DNA of 43,644 bases from a virus, in IMG/VR virus record IMGVR_UViG_3300003937_000308, positions 1 to 43,644 of that record; one strand, written 5' to 3'. The notes beneath the pieces are model-generated. The model worked only from the letters and a program-made list of their open reading frames with translations. It was not told the origin of the DNA and did no database searches. Positions within the stretch are counted from its first letter, which is position 1. The number at the start of each line of letters is the position of its first letter. Below are positions 19,842 to 25,599 of the stretch, in pieces. The position numbers and the translations under genes were made by a program.

Positions 19842-20399
19842 ATGGCTTTACCACATTATTCAGAAGACCAAACTAGTAGAAAGGGCAAGAACTTTGAACC
19901 AGTACAGGCTAACCTATTCGAGGTAACTATTTTACCACCGGATGGCGTAGATGGACAATCATTGTTCTTACAACACATTAACTCAATCTCAGGTTTGGAC
20001 ACTCTTCACAGAGAGGTAGCAGCTATCGAGCAGAAGTATAAGTTCTCAACAAGATCTTATGCAGGAATGCCCGATGGAACTGCAGTAGATATTACTGTCA
20101 ACTTCTCATTAAACCTAAACGATTCGAATGAGGCTTACTTATATAAGTCTATGAGACAATGGTATAGAAAACAATATAATCCTGAGACTGGAGCAATGGG
20201 TCTTAAAAAGGATTATGTAGGTACTGTTGTTATCGTTCAATTTAATAGAGCTGGTGATATTTACAGAAAAATAACTCTTGATGACTGTTTCATAACTTCA
20301 GGAATCGGATTCACAGGTGAATTAAACTATGAATCTGCAGATGCAGCTCAGTTAGAGGTTACATGGAGATGTGACGTCTACAATGAAGAAGTAAATTAA
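19842..20399 (+). CDS. 19: Tail tube protein (gp19-like)
   Basis: A 185-residue protein immediately after the sheath gene, close to T4 gp19 (163). Conserved features include NLFEVTILPP near the N-terminus, the central YKFSTRSYAGMPDGTAVDIT, SLNLNDSNEAYLYKSMRQWY and the C-terminal YESADAAQLEVTWRCDVY, which fit the beta-barrel tube fold shared with T4 gp19 and Hcp. Hexamers stack to form the inner tube around the tape measure. A terminator follows, ending the sheath-tube transcript. Confidence 0.92.
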   Translation: MALPHYSEDQTSRKGKNFEPVQANLFEVTILPPDGVDGQSLFLQHINSISGLDTLHREVAAIEQKYKFSTRSYAGMPDGTAVDITVNFSLNLNDSNEAYLYKSMRQWYRKQYNPETGAMGLKKDYVGTVVIVQFNRAGDIYRKITLDDCFITSGIGFTGELNYESADAAQLEVTWRCDVYNEEVN

Positions 20400-20713: not shown

Positions 20714-21724
20714 ATGAGTGAAGAATTAAACAAAATGGACCAGGAGCGAGAAGCTGCAGCAGCTAAAGCTCTTGATGCAAAAGATCAGAACAATTCTGGT
20801 AATACAGACACTTCTGATAAAGCTGACGCTATGGCAGCCGCTGTAGATAAATCAGGCTTAGGTAGAGTTAATATGGACAATTTTGGTCCTGAAATAGCTA
20901 GACCTGCAGATGAGGTATTAGGATGGCATGTTTTAGATCTAGAAGACTTACCATCTAGGGGTAAATTTTACCCAGCAGATACAGTTATTAAAATTAGATC
21001 TGCTAAAGCTGCTGAGATTAGACATTTCTCTACTATGGATGAAAGTAATTACATCGATATGGAAGAAAAGCTAAACTCTATTGTAGAATCTTGCTCACAG
21101 ATGTCTACTGGTAATGGTAAGTCTAGAATGTCTTACAAAGATGTTCTAGAAGAAGATAGAATTATTCTATTACTTTCTATTAGAGATCTTTCATTCCCAG
21201 AGCCAGAGAATAAGTTAATGCTTAAAGGTAAAACTGAAAAAACTAAAAAAACTGTCGATATTGAATTATCAGTTAAGAATTTAATACCTTCGGTTATTGA
21301 TGAGCAAGTAGAAAAATATTACTCTACAAAGGAAAGAACTTATGTAATTAAAACTAAGTCTGCAGGTACTTTAAGAATGAAACCACCAACAATTGGTATT
21401 ATGCAAGAGATTACTGCATATCTTAAAGATAGACAAGAAAAAGACCAGGAATTTGATAAAGCATTTATTCAAGTACTACCTTATATGCAATCCGATTGGA
21501 GAACTTTAAATTTACAAAAGATTTTCACCATGGAAATGGAATATAAAGGTTGGAACGAGAAAAAGTTTATGGTGGTCTACAGACTAGCTGAAAGAATGAA
21601 AATCGGTGTACAAACCGAATTAGAAACTACCTTCGACGGAGAGATGGCAAAAGCCCCTCTTGACTTCCCAGGTGGCATCAAAAGTCTTTTCATTATTTCA
21701 GATCTCGCTGGAGAATTACTTTAA
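20714..21724 (+). CDS. Tail assembly chaperone / baseplate-hub-type protein (gp26-like position), zero frame
   Basis: A 336-residue protein two genes upstream of the tape measure. After a disordered, Ala-rich N-terminus (1-60) comes VLDLEDLPSRGKFYP, a short motif recurring in T4-type tail proteins of this slot, then a helical body (LNSIVESCSQM, YKDVLEEDRIILLLSIR) with a small charged middle. In T4 this neighbourhood encodes hub and tail-assembly factors such as gp26 and gp51. The gene ends CTT TAA G and the conserved-looking continuation lies in the +1 frame (see next entries), so this may be only the shorter of two products. Zero-frame product ends GELL. Confidence 0.65.
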   Translation: MSEELNKMDQEREAAAAKALDAKDQNNSGNTDTSDKADAMAAAVDKSGLGRVNMDNFGPEIARPADEVLGWHVLDLEDLPSRGKFYPADTVIKIRSAKAAEIRHFSTMDESNYIDMEEKLNSIVESCSQMSTGNGKSRMSYKDVLEEDRIILLLSIRDLSFPEPENKLMLKGKTEKTKKTVDIELSVKNLIPSVIDEQVEKYYSTKERTYVIKTKSAGTLRMKPPTIGIMQEITAYLKDRQEKDQEFDKAFIQVLPYMQSDWRTLNLQKIFTMEMEYKGWNEKKFMVVYRLAERMKIGVQTELETTFDGEMAKAPLDFPGGIKSLFIISDLAGELL

Positions 21725-21968
21725 GACAAAGTTCTATCTGGGTATTCATCTTAGAATGCAGCCCTCAGAGATCGAAAACATGTACTACTACGAGTATTGG
21801 TATTATGTGAAGAATCTGTCGGAATACATTAAAAATAAGAATAAACAGCAAGAGGGACAGCAAGAACAACAGGACAAGTCGATGTCATCAATGAGATCGA
21901 AATATACTCCTAAGATGCCAACTGCCCCTAAAATTTCTACACCATCGCTAAGAATGCCGAAGATGTAA
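21660..21968 (+). CDS. +1-frame extension of the tail assembly chaperone
   Basis: This frame is open from 21624 to 21968 but has no ATG before the conserved part; the only early start is TTG at 21660, inside the upstream gene. From 21723 it reads KTKFYLGIHLRMQPSEIENM, then YYYEYWYYVKNLSEYIK and a Gln/Lys/Pro-rich tail. FYLGxHLRMQPSEIExMxYYEY is what I recall as the end of tail chaperones that precede tape measure genes in T4-like phages, and it lies downstream of any usable ATG. Joined to the zero frame by the +1 slip the product would be about 417 residues. Independent translation from TTG is the alternative. Confidence 0.6.
   Translation: MTSQVASKVFSLFQISLENYFKTKFYLGIHLRMQPSEIENMYYYEYWYYVKNLSEYIKNKNKQQEGQQEQQDKSMSSMRSKYTPKMPTAPKISTPSLRMPKM
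21710..21725 (+). other. Candidate +1 ribosomal frameshift site (CTT TAA G)
   Basis: CTT (21719-21721) is directly followed by the stop TAA and then G, the same layout as the bacterial prfB (RF2) programmed site CTT TGA C. Slipping from CTT to TTT (21720-21722) enters the frame AAG ACA AAG (from 21723), which stays open to 21968. GGAG (21710-21713) sits five bases upstream of CTT, like the stimulatory Shine-Dalgarno-like element of prfB, though its effect in Bacteroidetes ribosomes is uncertain. Confidence 0.55.
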
Positions 21969-21970
21969 GA

Positions 21971-21979
21971 GATATATAA
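21971..21979 (+). promoter_or_regulatory. Late promoter-like box before tape measure leader
   Basis: GATATATAA begins two bases after the chaperone extension's stop codon, 68 bases before the tape measure start. Confidence 0.6.
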
Positions 21980-21990
21980 TATAGTAATAA

Positions 21991-22017
21991 GGAGCACCAC
22001 TTTTACAGTGGTGTTCC
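21991..22017 (+). promoter_or_regulatory. Hairpin in the tape measure leader
   Basis: GGAGCACCACT (21991-22001) pairs with AGTGGTGTTCC (22007-22017) over 11 positions with one G-T pair, around the loop TTTAC. No T run follows, so it is not a normal terminator; it precedes a 10-codon ORF and probably shapes translation of the tape measure gene. Confidence 0.6.
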
Positions 22018-22018
22018 T

Positions 22019-22051
22019 ATGTACTTAAAAAAATCTACAAGACCTAAGTGA
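22019..22051 (+). CDS. 10-codon leader ORF overlapping the tape measure start
   Basis: ATG at 22019 opens MYLKKSTRPK and ends TGA at 22049-22051, overlapping the tape measure GTG (22048-22050) as GTGA. The only ATG in this leader belongs to it, so ribosomes may reach the GTG by termination-reinitiation. Such a short ORF could also be chance. Confidence 0.35.
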   Translation: MYLKKSTRPK

Positions 22052-25000
22052 ATAAATTCTTTGAAAACGCCTTTAGCCGACTGGGTAACCAAGGCGATGT
22101 ATTAGGCCAAGTTGCAGAAAACACTCGAGAAAGCGCAGATTCTGTAGCAGTTGGTGGTGATTTATATGAAAAGGTTAACGAGTTAACTAAAGCTGTTTCT
22201 GCTATCCAAGAAGGTGATGGTGGAGGTGGTGGTCTTAAAAATGCAATGGCAATTGCATTAGTATCTCCTTCTATGGAGCCTCTTGGTAAAGGTTTACAAT
22301 TTGTAGTAGATGCTGTTAATGCATTAGAAGGTACTGGCGATGAAATAAAAGCTAAGACAGAAGCTCTAGTCGGAGGTCTAACTTTATTAGGCGACGTGGG
22401 CTTATCTATTCTTAAATTCGCAGGTTATCTTGCATTAGCAACACCACTCTTAATGATTGCCGTTGTCGGCGCTCCTATAATAGCAATTACTTTATTAGCA
22501 CTTATTACAGCAGTTAATTTCGCAACTAAGAAGTTAGACGAAAAGCAACTGGAGAAGGTTCAAATGCTAGGTGATGTAGGTAAGTCAATACTTATTTTAG
22601 TAGGTACTTTAGCCCTGGCATCATTTATCGTACCTTTTGCATTAAAAGCCCTGATACCAACAATGATTATATTTGGTGCATTTGCATTATTAACTATGAT
22701 TCTACCTGAAAAGAGAGTAGACCAGATAGAAACGGTTGGCCAAGGTATGCTTAAAGTAGCGTTAGGAATAGGTGCTTTAATGTTAGTCCTTGCACTAACA
22801 AGCTTTCTTGTTGTACCTGCTCTTAAAGGTGCAGTTATGGCAATGATCGTCATAGGAGTAATCGGATTAGGATTTGCTATGTTAGAAGAACTGGGGGTTA
22901 TAGATAATATGGAAAAAGCAGGCAAAGGACTATTATTTGCGGCTGGGGCTATTCTAGGCCTTGGTATTGCATTAGCTCTATTTGATATAATTACTCCATC
23001 ACTTAGTGTTTTAATTAGTATAGGCATTGTTGTTCTAACCGTAGGTTTATTTTTTGGACTAATTGGTATATTCGATAAACAAATTGAAGGTGGTGCAAAA
23101 GCACTTTTATGGGCAGCTCTTTCAATAGTTGTATTAGGTCTAGCACTATTATTCTTTACTAAAGTAATAGGGGCCAATATGGGAGGCGAAGATGTTGCAA
23201 ATTCATTTGTACCACTATTATTAATTGGTTTAATTGGAGCTGCATTTGCCCTTGCAGGTTTGGTCAAATCTCAAATTATGGGAGGTGCCGCTGCATTAAT
23301 GGTAGGAGGTATTGCTTTAATAATTATTGGAGTTGGTGTTTTAATAATTTCTAAAGCGTTAGGTGATAAACCACTCGCTAGAGTAGGAGCTATTATGGCA
23401 GCTGTCGGCGGATTAGCCCTAGTATTTGGTGCCGCTGGTATACCAGTAGTTGCAGGATTTATTGCATTAGGTGCTGGAGCTATGGTAATAGCAGGTATAG
23501 CATTAATAACAATTGGTGCAGGTCTCTTAATAATGTCAAAAGCATACGATAAAGGTAAGAAAATGCTAGAACCAGTTGATGGTAAACCAGGTCTAGTAAG
23601 TTTACTAGATGCAGTCGCTGGCGGATTTAAAATGTTCCCATGGACTGCTGCAGGTATTCTATTAGGTGCTGGAGCTTTAACATTGGCAGGTGTTGCTTTA
23701 ATAACAATTGGTAAAGGTGTACAACAGTTTGCTAAAATACAAGAGACTATAAAACTTAAACCATTAGCAGAGAATATCGCATTTATGATTGGTACCTTAG
23801 CAATTCCATTCCAAAAGATTGGAGCTGGAGGGATGTTAGAGGTTACTGATCCGGTAACAGGAGAAAAGGTAGAGATTGGTCCATTTAGTGGCGGCTCCGG
23901 AGGTTTTATGGGTTTCGGTGGAAGTAATCCAGTCGCAATAGGTATTTCTTCAGTACTTAGAATGGGTACAGCTTTATCTAACATTGCTGGCGGTGTTCAG
24001 AGTATGGCTATGTTAAAGTTCCCAACTGGATTTGATAAAGAAGGTAAACCTACTGCCTATGAGACTATCGGTGGTGATGCATTTAAGAAAGTAATCACTA
24101 ACACGATGATGATGGTTGGTTCACTTGCCATTCCTTTCGCTCAAATAGGCGACGGTGGTCCGCAAGACGTTCTAATGCCAGATGGAAAAAGACATACAAT
24201 TGATCTAGGCTCTCCTTCTCCTGGAGGTCTAATGGGCTTCTTAAAAGGTGGAGGTGCAGTACAAAAAGGTATTAAGGCTGTAATGAACATGGGAGAGGCT
24301 ATTTCTAATTTAGCTGGAGGTGTTCAAGATATGGCAATGCTTAAATTCCCTACAGGTTTTGATGCAGAAGGTAAGGCAACTGGATATAGAGTCTTCGGGA
24401 CAGATGATGCTCAAAAAGTTACTGATAATACTCAGAAGTTAGTCGGGGCTCTTACAGGTACATTCCAGGAAATTGGTAATAACCCTAACGCGGAGAGTTC
24501 ATGGTGGGGTGGAAAATCCAAGATTGAAAAAGGTATTGAAATTGTTGCAGGTATTGGTGAGCCACTACTTAACCTAGCGAAAGGTGTAGAGGCAATGGCT
24601 GGTCTTAAATTCCCTATCTATGATAAAGACGGTAAAATTACAGGCTATAATACAATTGAAAATGTTGAAGGTTTAAAAGACAAGGTCGGTAGTAATACTC
24701 AGAAGTTAATCGAGGCTCTAACAGATACTCTTATGGCAATTGGTGGTGGAAAAGCAAAAACATCATCTTGGTGGCAAGGCGAAACCACTTTTGAAAAAGG
24801 TATTGAAGTCGTTACTATGATTGGTGAGCCATATAAAGTACTTGGTGAATCTGTAAAAGATATTGTAGAAATTGTAGGCAAAATGGACTCTAAATCATTT
24901 GCTGGTAAAATACAAGATATTATTGGAATATTTACAGGTGATGCTGCAATGGCAGCAGATCCAGCGTCTCTTGTGTTTAGAAAGAATTTTGTAATAGCAG

Positions 25001-25599
25001 TTGGTGAGTCATTTGAAAAATTAGGAAAATCAGTTCCATCAATTACACAGGCCCTTGCAAACTTTAAAGCAGAGCAAGGTAAGGCATTCTTTAATGCATT
25101 TGTAGGACCAGTCGCTGAAGGTGACGAAGCAAATGGTTACAATAAACAAAAGTTAATGTGGAAGGCTATTGGTAATGCAATGGTTCAAACTAAAGATTCT
25201 ATGCCAGGTATCACTAGTGCTATCAATGAAATGGATATGGAGAAACTAGTTGAATCCAGAAAAATGTTTGAAGCTCTTGCTGTTCTAGGTGAAGGCGGAG
25301 ATCCTGGAGATATACTTGCAGCAATGGGTGAATCACTTGAAGAGGCTCTTCAAAATCTAGCAGATATGTTAGGTGAATTCCAATCTAGTGTAGCAGAAAA
25401 TTCAGCAACTACAGGTGGAGCTCTTAGCGGCTTAACAGATGGTATTAAGAAAATGACCGGCGGCGGAGGAGGTTCTAGCCAATCTAGCAATAGTGGTGGA
25501 GGTGATAGCGATGATGTTGTTAGAGCAGTTAAATCACTACAGTCTGCACTTATTTCTCAAGGTATTAAGATTAAGAGTAGCGGCGGTTTCTTTGGTTAA
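22048..25599 (+). CDS. Tail tape measure protein
   Basis: An 1183-residue protein, by far the longest tail protein here, following the chaperone gene: the usual place of the tape measure, which sets tail length and is ejected ahead of the DNA. After a soluble N-terminus, residues about 100-560 contain a dozen hydrophobic Gly/Ala/Ile/Val segments of membrane-span length separated by short charged links (for example GDVGKSILILVGTLALASF). Residues about 625-960 hold four related modules each starting K-G-I-x-x-V-x-x-I/M-G-E/T-x-L and containing MAMLKFPTGFD or variants. The C-terminus is Gly/Ser-rich. A stop codon (TAA 22045-22047) directly precedes the GTG in frame, and the next in-frame ATG is about 67 codons on, so GTG is the probable start. 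The length suggests a tail clearly longer than that of T4, if the whole protein spans it. Confidence 0.85.
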   Translation: MNKFFENAFSRLGNQGDVLGQVAENTRESADSVAVGGDLYEKVNELTKAVSAIQEGDGGGGGLKNAMAIALVSPSMEPLGKGLQFVVDAVNALEGTGDEIKAKTEALVGGLTLLGDVGLSILKFAGYLALATPLLMIAVVGAPIIAITLLALITAVNFATKKLDEKQLEKVQMLGDVGKSILILVGTLALASFIVPFALKALIPTMIIFGAFALLTMILPEKRVDQIETVGQGMLKVALGIGALMLVLALTSFLVVPALKGAVMAMIVIGVIGLGFAMLEELGVIDNMEKAGKGLLFAAGAILGLGIALALFDIITPSLSVLISIGIVVLTVGLFFGLIGIFDKQIEGGAKALLWAALSIVVLGLALLFFTKVIGANMGGEDVANSFVPLLLIGLIGAAFALAGLVKSQIMGGAAALMVGGIALIIIGVGVLIISKALGDKPLARVGAIMAAVGGLALVFGAAGIPVVAGFIALGAGAMVIAGIALITIGAGLLIMSKAYDKGKKMLEPVDGKPGLVSLLDAVAGGFKMFPWTAAGILLGAGALTLAGVALITIGKGVQQFAKIQETIKLKPLAENIAFMIGTLAIPFQKIGAGGMLEVTDPVTGEKVEIGPFSGGSGGFMGFGGSNPVAIGISSVLRMGTALSNIAGGVQSMAMLKFPTGFDKEGKPTAYETIGGDAFKKVITNTMMMVGSLAIPFAQIGDGGPQDVLMPDGKRHTIDLGSPSPGGLMGFLKGGGAVQKGIKAVMNMGEAISNLAGGVQDMAMLKFPTGFDAEGKATGYRVFGTDDAQKVTDNTQKLVGALTGTFQEIGNNPNAESSWWGGKSKIEKGIEIVAGIGEPLLNLAKGVEAMAGLKFPIYDKDGKITGYNTIENVEGLKDKVGSNTQKLIEALTDTLMAIGGGKAKTSSWWQGETTFEKGIEVVTMIGEPYKVLGESVKDIVEIVGKMDSKSFAGKIQDIIGIFTGDAAMAADPASLVFRKNFVIAVGESFEKLGKSVPSITQALANFKAEQGKAFFNAFVGPVAEGDEANGYNKQKLMWKAIGNAMVQTKDSMPGITSAINEMDMEKLVESRKMFEALAVLGEGGDPGDILAAMGESLEEALQNLADMLGEFQSSVAENSATTGGALSGLTDGIKKMTGGGGGSSQSSNSGGGDSDDVVRAVKSLQSALISQGIKIKSSGGFFG
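23929..24900 (+). repeat. Four degenerate protein modules in the tape measure
   Basis: Modules begin near 23935, 24265, 24530 and 24797, spaced about 110, 88 and 89 codons. Each shares a GTALSNIAGGVQSMAMLKFP-like stretch followed by NTQKLVGALTGTF-like helix and IGDGG-like turn; the fourth keeps only the first part. They look like internal duplications. Confidence 0.7.

Follow-up and report, generated by a model that had tools for sequence, protein, structure and literature searches.

Frameshifting in tail-assembly chaperone genes (by -1, -2 or +1) has been described in a 2016 review as conserved in long-tailed phages with the exception of T4 (PMC5009743). In lambda G/GT, as in the other described chaperone frameshifts, a short and a long form of the protein are made from one start, the shift lies near the end of the first open reading frame (ORF), and the gene is found between those for the tail tube and the tape measure (PMC5009743). 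According to Vladimirov (2022), as relayed in PMC10885494, T4-like phages use a mechanism other than frameshifting, some of them having separate short and long genes. In T4 itself these are the genes for gp26 and gp51, which are the short and long versions of one protein; both belong to PF12322, and a match to phrog_634 (the gp51 C-terminal family) is limited to gp51.

Two systems outside tail assembly share individual features with the locus described here. One is the arterivirus -2 frameshift, which occurs at G_GUU_UUU and U_GUU_UUU, i.e., at sites where re-pairing is good in the A site only (PMC6675879). The other is E. coli prfB, with its shift site CUU_UGA_C. In the open-licence literature we found no paper on a chaperone frameshift in the lineages of Bacteroidota phages considered below.

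Gene layout and kinship with T4 gp26 and gp51

The window analysed here (i.e., the whole stretch of DNA under study) is a 43,644-base virus record from a single metagenomic, marine phage, and the chaperone locus and its two neighbouring genes lie on its + strand. Read directly from its sequence, the first frame of interest, ORF1 (20714-21724), encodes 336 amino acids and terminates in CTT TAA (21719-21724), the next base being G. The tail tube gene (19842-20399; phrog_4542 with E 2e-8, and phrog_45) lies upstream of it, and its downstream neighbour is an ORF of 1183 amino acids (22048-25599), for which we found no informative family match and whose size and position alone mark it as a tape-measure candidate. 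The +1 frame of ORF1, referred to here as ORF2, is open from 21624 to 21968, with its stop codon at 21966-21968; counted from AAG at 21723 it comprises 81 codons and includes FYLGIHLRMQPSEIE. An earlier note on this DNA, which had proposed a prfB-like slip at CTT TAA G (21719-21725) at the end of a tail-assembly chaperone gene, gave the coordinates of this end and the 81 open codons correctly, and the GGAG which it reported five bases 5' of CTT is present at 21710-21713.

We also agree with that note that ORF2 has no usable upstream ATG. Before its conserved part begins, the +1 frame offers just two candidate start codons, TTG 21660 and GTG 21672, with the first ATG at 21756, and a cross-lineage comparison of these three codons revealed no start position common to the lineages; in lineage L180 there was no ATG, GTG or TTG ahead of the conserved +1 segment within the stretch checked. 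As in G/GT-type chaperone genes, ORF2 overlaps ORF1 out of frame and has no conserved start of its own. One might still suppose that ORF2 is made separately, by re-initiation or from one of these internal starts, in a manner coupled to the end of ORF1. Such coupling is frequent among overlapping genes, several annotators let a short gene begin at an internal ATG, and the LR745206 clade carries ATG ATG in the overlap. We nevertheless consider separate synthesis improbable: beyond the lack of a shared start, and of any start before the conserved segment in L180, starting at the later ATGs would leave out the best-conserved stretch of the +1 frame, and a gp51-like long form would not result.

The ORF1 protein of the window matched phrog_36717 and had no Pfam match itself. 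Among its relatives, 3 of the 29 aligned ORF1 proteins matched phrog_150 (the T4 gp26/gp51 family), and the homologues of PAU and LR756500 passed the PF12322 cut-off. A profile comparison between the ORF1 family and gp26/gp51 gave a weak sequence match (probability 48%), and we therefore turned to a fold search. An AlphaFold2 model of the protein (mean pLDDT 80) found its matches in BFVD among T4-like baseplate hub and hub-assembly proteins (e.g., from Bacillus phage SP-15, E 5e-10); a fold search of the PDB gave nothing significant, the HK97 tail chaperone 2ob9 appearing at rank 37 with E 3.5. ORF2 matched phrog_634 (E 3e-7), with the match beginning upstream of CTT TAA, and so provides the gp51-type C-terminal extension. 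Judged by its predicted fold and by the profile matches of its relatives, ORF1 is T4 gp26/gp51-like, a relationship which supports the tail-chaperone context assumed in the earlier note. Since gp26 and gp51 both belong to PF12322 and only gp51 matches phrog_634, ORF1 alone would be gp26-like and ORF1 joined to ORF2 gp51-like. The locus thus differs from T4, which has two separate genes, in that one gene with a frameshift would yield both proteins, and it differs from lambda, which shifts -1, in that the second frame lies at +1/-2 and the protein family is of T4 type.

Conservation of the +1 offset and the point of frame change

By scanning IMG/VR together with named phage records we obtained 260 loci that allowed both parts to be scored, among them isolate phages of Sphingomonas, Chryseobacterium, Tenacibaculum and Flavobacterium as well as metagenomic phages of 460-740 kb. 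ORF2 lay in the +1 frame at 260 out of 260 loci, with no locus in any other frame. Many of the loci are near-identical, with about a dozen divergent lineages behind them, so the number of independent events is far smaller than 260. On this sequence comparison, the +1 offset is beyond chance, since it is common to all scored loci, and the predicted fusion of ORF1 and ORF2 by frameshifting is strongly supported. According to the earlier note, homologues in which the two frames are fused or in which ORF2 has its own start would refute its reading; fused frames were found at 0 of the 260 loci, and no ORF2 start was common to the lineages. With the window being a single metagenomic record, one could suspect an assembly or sequencing error that split a single ORF. 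However, the identical split is present at all 260 loci, including those of the isolates PAU, PTm1, pT24, MA9V and MaF61, and its presence in isolate genomes excludes a sequencing error, leaving this explanation with a negligible probability.

Small annotated genes follow ORF1 in several isolate phages (L164, 2414-2590; L166, 2459-2596; L167, 2375-2545; L168, 2911-3033; L175, 2309-2530) and lie inside the ORF2 region; they appear to be versions of ORF2 annotated from a start codon within it.

Across lineages, the 0-frame keeps GG-I-K-x-[LI]-F, after which its similarity fades, while the +1 frame varies up to F-S-L-[FI]-Q and is similar thereafter. Mean pairwise BLOSUM62 scores among 14 lineages switch accordingly, from 1.01 (0-frame) vs. 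0.04 (+1 frame) upstream of the site to 0.20 vs. 0.95 downstream of it, although in the eight deepest lineages taken alone the eight codons before the site are about equally similar in both frames. The z-scores from synonymous shuffling are inflated by common descent and were not treated as p values. Within the window clade (69 sequences), substitutions as far as 21680 leave the ORF1 protein unchanged, whereas those at 21704-21709 (CTC GCT to ATC TCT) are silent in ORF2 and not in ORF1. In 23 of these 69 sequences a stop codon interrupts the +1 frame at 21648, meaning that it is not coding there. Considering both the substitutions within the clade and the switch in similarity between lineages, we place the frame change at AGT CTT TTC (21683-21691).

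The slip at CTT TAA G which the earlier note had proposed, with ...AGELL-KTKFYL... as its product, has a textbook CUU_U ahead of a stop codon and GGAG five bases upstream, and CTT TAA is invariant in the window clade and in L161 and L180-L189. The alignment of homologues suggested in that note turned out against it: CTT TAA G is invariant only in the window and LR756500 clade, and elsewhere ORF1 ends in GAA TAA, GAG TAA, TTA TGA, TCT TAA, ATT TAA or TTA TAA, i.e., at sites which are not slip-prone and do not keep the CUU_U of the prfB analogy, yet the +1 ORF is retained. Furthermore, conservation of the +1 protein begins at F-S-L-F-Q, 33 nt (11 codons) upstream of CTT TAA, so that a slip at the stop leaves the conserved segment F-S-L-F-Q-x-x-L-x-N-[YF] unexplained. 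A shift at the stop codon exerts no selection on the +1 codons before it, and the constraint at 21704-21709, where substitutions in this segment are silent in the +1 frame only, thus counts against the stop site. Its local conservation can be explained by double coding, as in the window and LR756500 clade CTT TAA G encodes both ...ELL* and ...N[YF]FK. Nor is a GGAG five bases upstream spaced as is usual for prfB, and Bacteroidota ribosomes rely little on Shine-Dalgarno pairing. On the grounds of conservation we rejected the prfB-like shift, which we regard as very unlikely, and take CTT TAA G to be the stop of ORF1 and not the shift site.

The heptamer and the direction of the slip

At the switch point, T_[CA]TT_TT[CT] is present in 259 of the 260 scored loci (in the window as T_CTT_TTC, 21685-21691), and LR756504, unscored by the profile, also carries it. 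The heptamer is absent, and the +1 ORF kept, in pT24 (ATT GTC TTT) and in the Lak phages (ATA TTC). Together with the frame switch, this conservation makes it highly probable, in our view, that a single chaperone gene of gp26/gp51 type gives rise to two proteins through a slip at U_CUU_UUC. Most ribosomes would terminate at 21722 and release the short, gp26-like form of 336 amino acids. A fraction of them would slip at the heptamer into the +1 frame, where the translated part of ORF2 would run from TCA 21690 to 21968 (92 amino acids), giving a long form of 417-418 amino acids with the gp51-type C-terminal domain. Judging from lambda gpG/gpGT, the short form may coat the tape measure protein, while the extension of the long form may recruit tail tube subunits. 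It is from sequence that we infer the occurrence of slippage, its rate and these chaperone roles.

An ORF2 in the +1 frame, as the earlier note had it, is found at all 260 loci; the +1 direction which it assumed fares less well, since the heptamer better fits a slip by -2. In such a slip tRNA-Phe would move from UUC back to UUU, and the product would read GGIKS-L-F-S-L-F-Q. We lean towards this direction because of four observations. Re-pairing of the A-site tRNA-Phe from UUY to UUU would be perfect at every locus with the heptamer, in its CTT and ATT variants alike; the T preceding the codon is conserved, although +1 slippage has no need of it; the position at which F is retained by the -2 product alone is taken by F or Y in single-ORF gp51 proteins; and T4-like phages carry a -1 heptamer at the homologous junction (see the next section).

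A slip by +1 at the same site is possible, if distinctly less probable. Here, the P-site tRNA-Leu (or tRNA-Ile) would move from CUU or AUU to UUU with UUC, not a stop codon, in the A site, and the product would be GGIKS-L-S-L-F-Q, which lacks the aromatic residue of the single-ORF gp51 proteins. CUU_U is the classical P-site slip of prfB (PMC5009743); by contrast, the move from AUU to UUU involves a first-position mismatch, though several lineages use ATT. The Lak megaphages (L162, L163), in which ORF2 is likewise in the +1 frame, have GAT TTT TAA T at the ORF1 stop, and this TTT TAA T, a possible shifty-stop +1 site leading into the same frame, fits better with a slip by +1. The ORF2 of Lak-B5 contains one in-frame TAG, which fits the TAG recoding known in Lak phages. 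Convention also speaks against -2, in that frames entered as +1 in Bacteroidota are mostly called +1 slips. Scoring the -2 and +1 products with HMMs did not separate the two directions, and we think it unlikely that the +1 frame is entered by any route other than these two.

The known -2 and +1 sites each resemble the locus in part. Arterivirus nsp2TF, which speaks further for -2, is alike in the form of its heptamer, in its entry into the +1 frame and in its A-site-only re-pairing (PMC6675879), and differs in its eukaryotic ribosomes, protein trans-activators, C-rich downstream motif and unrelated genes. With E. coli prfB the window clade shares CTT TAA G and the upstream GGAG, and CTT is also a codon of the site we favour; there, however, the next codon is TTC and not a stop, and the version at the stop is unconserved.

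Related junctions in T4-like phages and signals near the site

At the homologous junction, six T4-like phages infecting Prochlorococcus, Synechococcus, Pelagibacter, Vibrio and Pseudomonas (P-SSM2, S-RIM2, ACG-2014b, HTVC008M, Vibrio TCU-VP04 and Pseudomonas Astolliot) carry T_TTT_TT[CT], a standard -1 heptamer, and their ORF2 lies in the -1 frame. The protein pair and its place in the genome are the same as here, whereas the junction (T_TTT_TT[CT] there, T_[CA]TT_TT[CT] here) and the second frame (-1 there, +1/-2 here) differ. We infer that these cyanophage-type relatives of T4 frameshift as well. In the T4-like cyanophage, Pelagibacter, Vibrio and Pseudomonas phages L280-L285, gp26 has T_TTT_TT[CT] at its end, and in the -1 frame the gp51-type domain continues beyond the start annotated for gp51, so that the annotated gp51 looks like a truncated call of the -1 frameshift product.

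These junctions allow a broader reading, which we hold tentatively and judge to fall just short of an even chance. In a T4-type lineage whose hosts, where known, are mostly Bacteroidota, the gp51-type long chaperone would be made by a dedicated -2 frameshift at U_(C/A)UU_UU(C/U). As this site is homologous in position to the cyanophage-type -1 site U_UUU_UUY, a single heptamer would have changed its step size in evolution, with T4 having separate short and long genes. The conservation described above suggests that many T4-type phages do use chaperone frameshifting, and the separate gp26 and gp51 genes of T4 would then be one solution among several. If the slip is indeed by -2, these loci would make up an extensive and deeply conserved collection of naturally occurring -2 sites for bacterial ribosomes, for which few cases exist. 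Short 'hypothetical' or 'gp51' genes in databases would be explained as truncated second frames.

The heptamer occurs 9 times in the window's genes (including the shift site) against 11.1 expected from codon usage; it is thus not avoided elsewhere, meaning that the heptamer alone is insufficient. In the window clade, the commonest codon is used in 0.987 of sequences over 21653-21722, compared with 0.741 elsewhere in ORF1 (Mann-Whitney p = 3e-12), and in 0.990 vs. 0.741 over the 33 nt that precede the shift site (21653-21685; p 5e-7), both p values being nominal as the 51 sequences are related. Double coding cannot account for the frozen synonymous codons in these 33 nt, which may act as a 5' stimulator. 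Downstream of the site, no stimulatory structure or hairpin exceeded those of shuffled sequences. A stem of CCCAGGTGG and CTATCTGGG (21667-21675 with 21734-21742), which surrounds both the heptamer and CTT TAA G, is invariant in the window clade and lost in relatives; it showed no covariation, its single varying pair being G-U/G-C, and was rejected as a candidate.

The window also carries six tRNA genes between 27384 and 35239 (Ser-TGA, Glu-TTC, Gln-TTG, Leu-TAA, Arg-TCT and Lys-TTT), and neither shift-site codon, CTT or TTC, is matched by any of their anticodons.

The region between ORF2 and the tape-measure candidate contains two further elements. After the ORF2 stop and just before a hairpin lies an AT-rich element (21967-21985) close to AGATATATAATATAG, which is found in most relatives within the window clade (at the corresponding place in L083, L085, L099, L110, L121, L125 and L140) and may serve the tape-measure gene as a late promoter. 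The hairpin itself (21990-22017) is strong, at about -22 kcal/mol, and has a counterpart at the corresponding place in L083, L085, L099, L110, L121, L125, L140 and L157. The stems in these relatives are quite different in sequence (GGAGCACCAC, GGGGTATG and GGAGTGCTA, each with a matching partner), and the persistence of the hairpin despite such differences suggests selection for structure.
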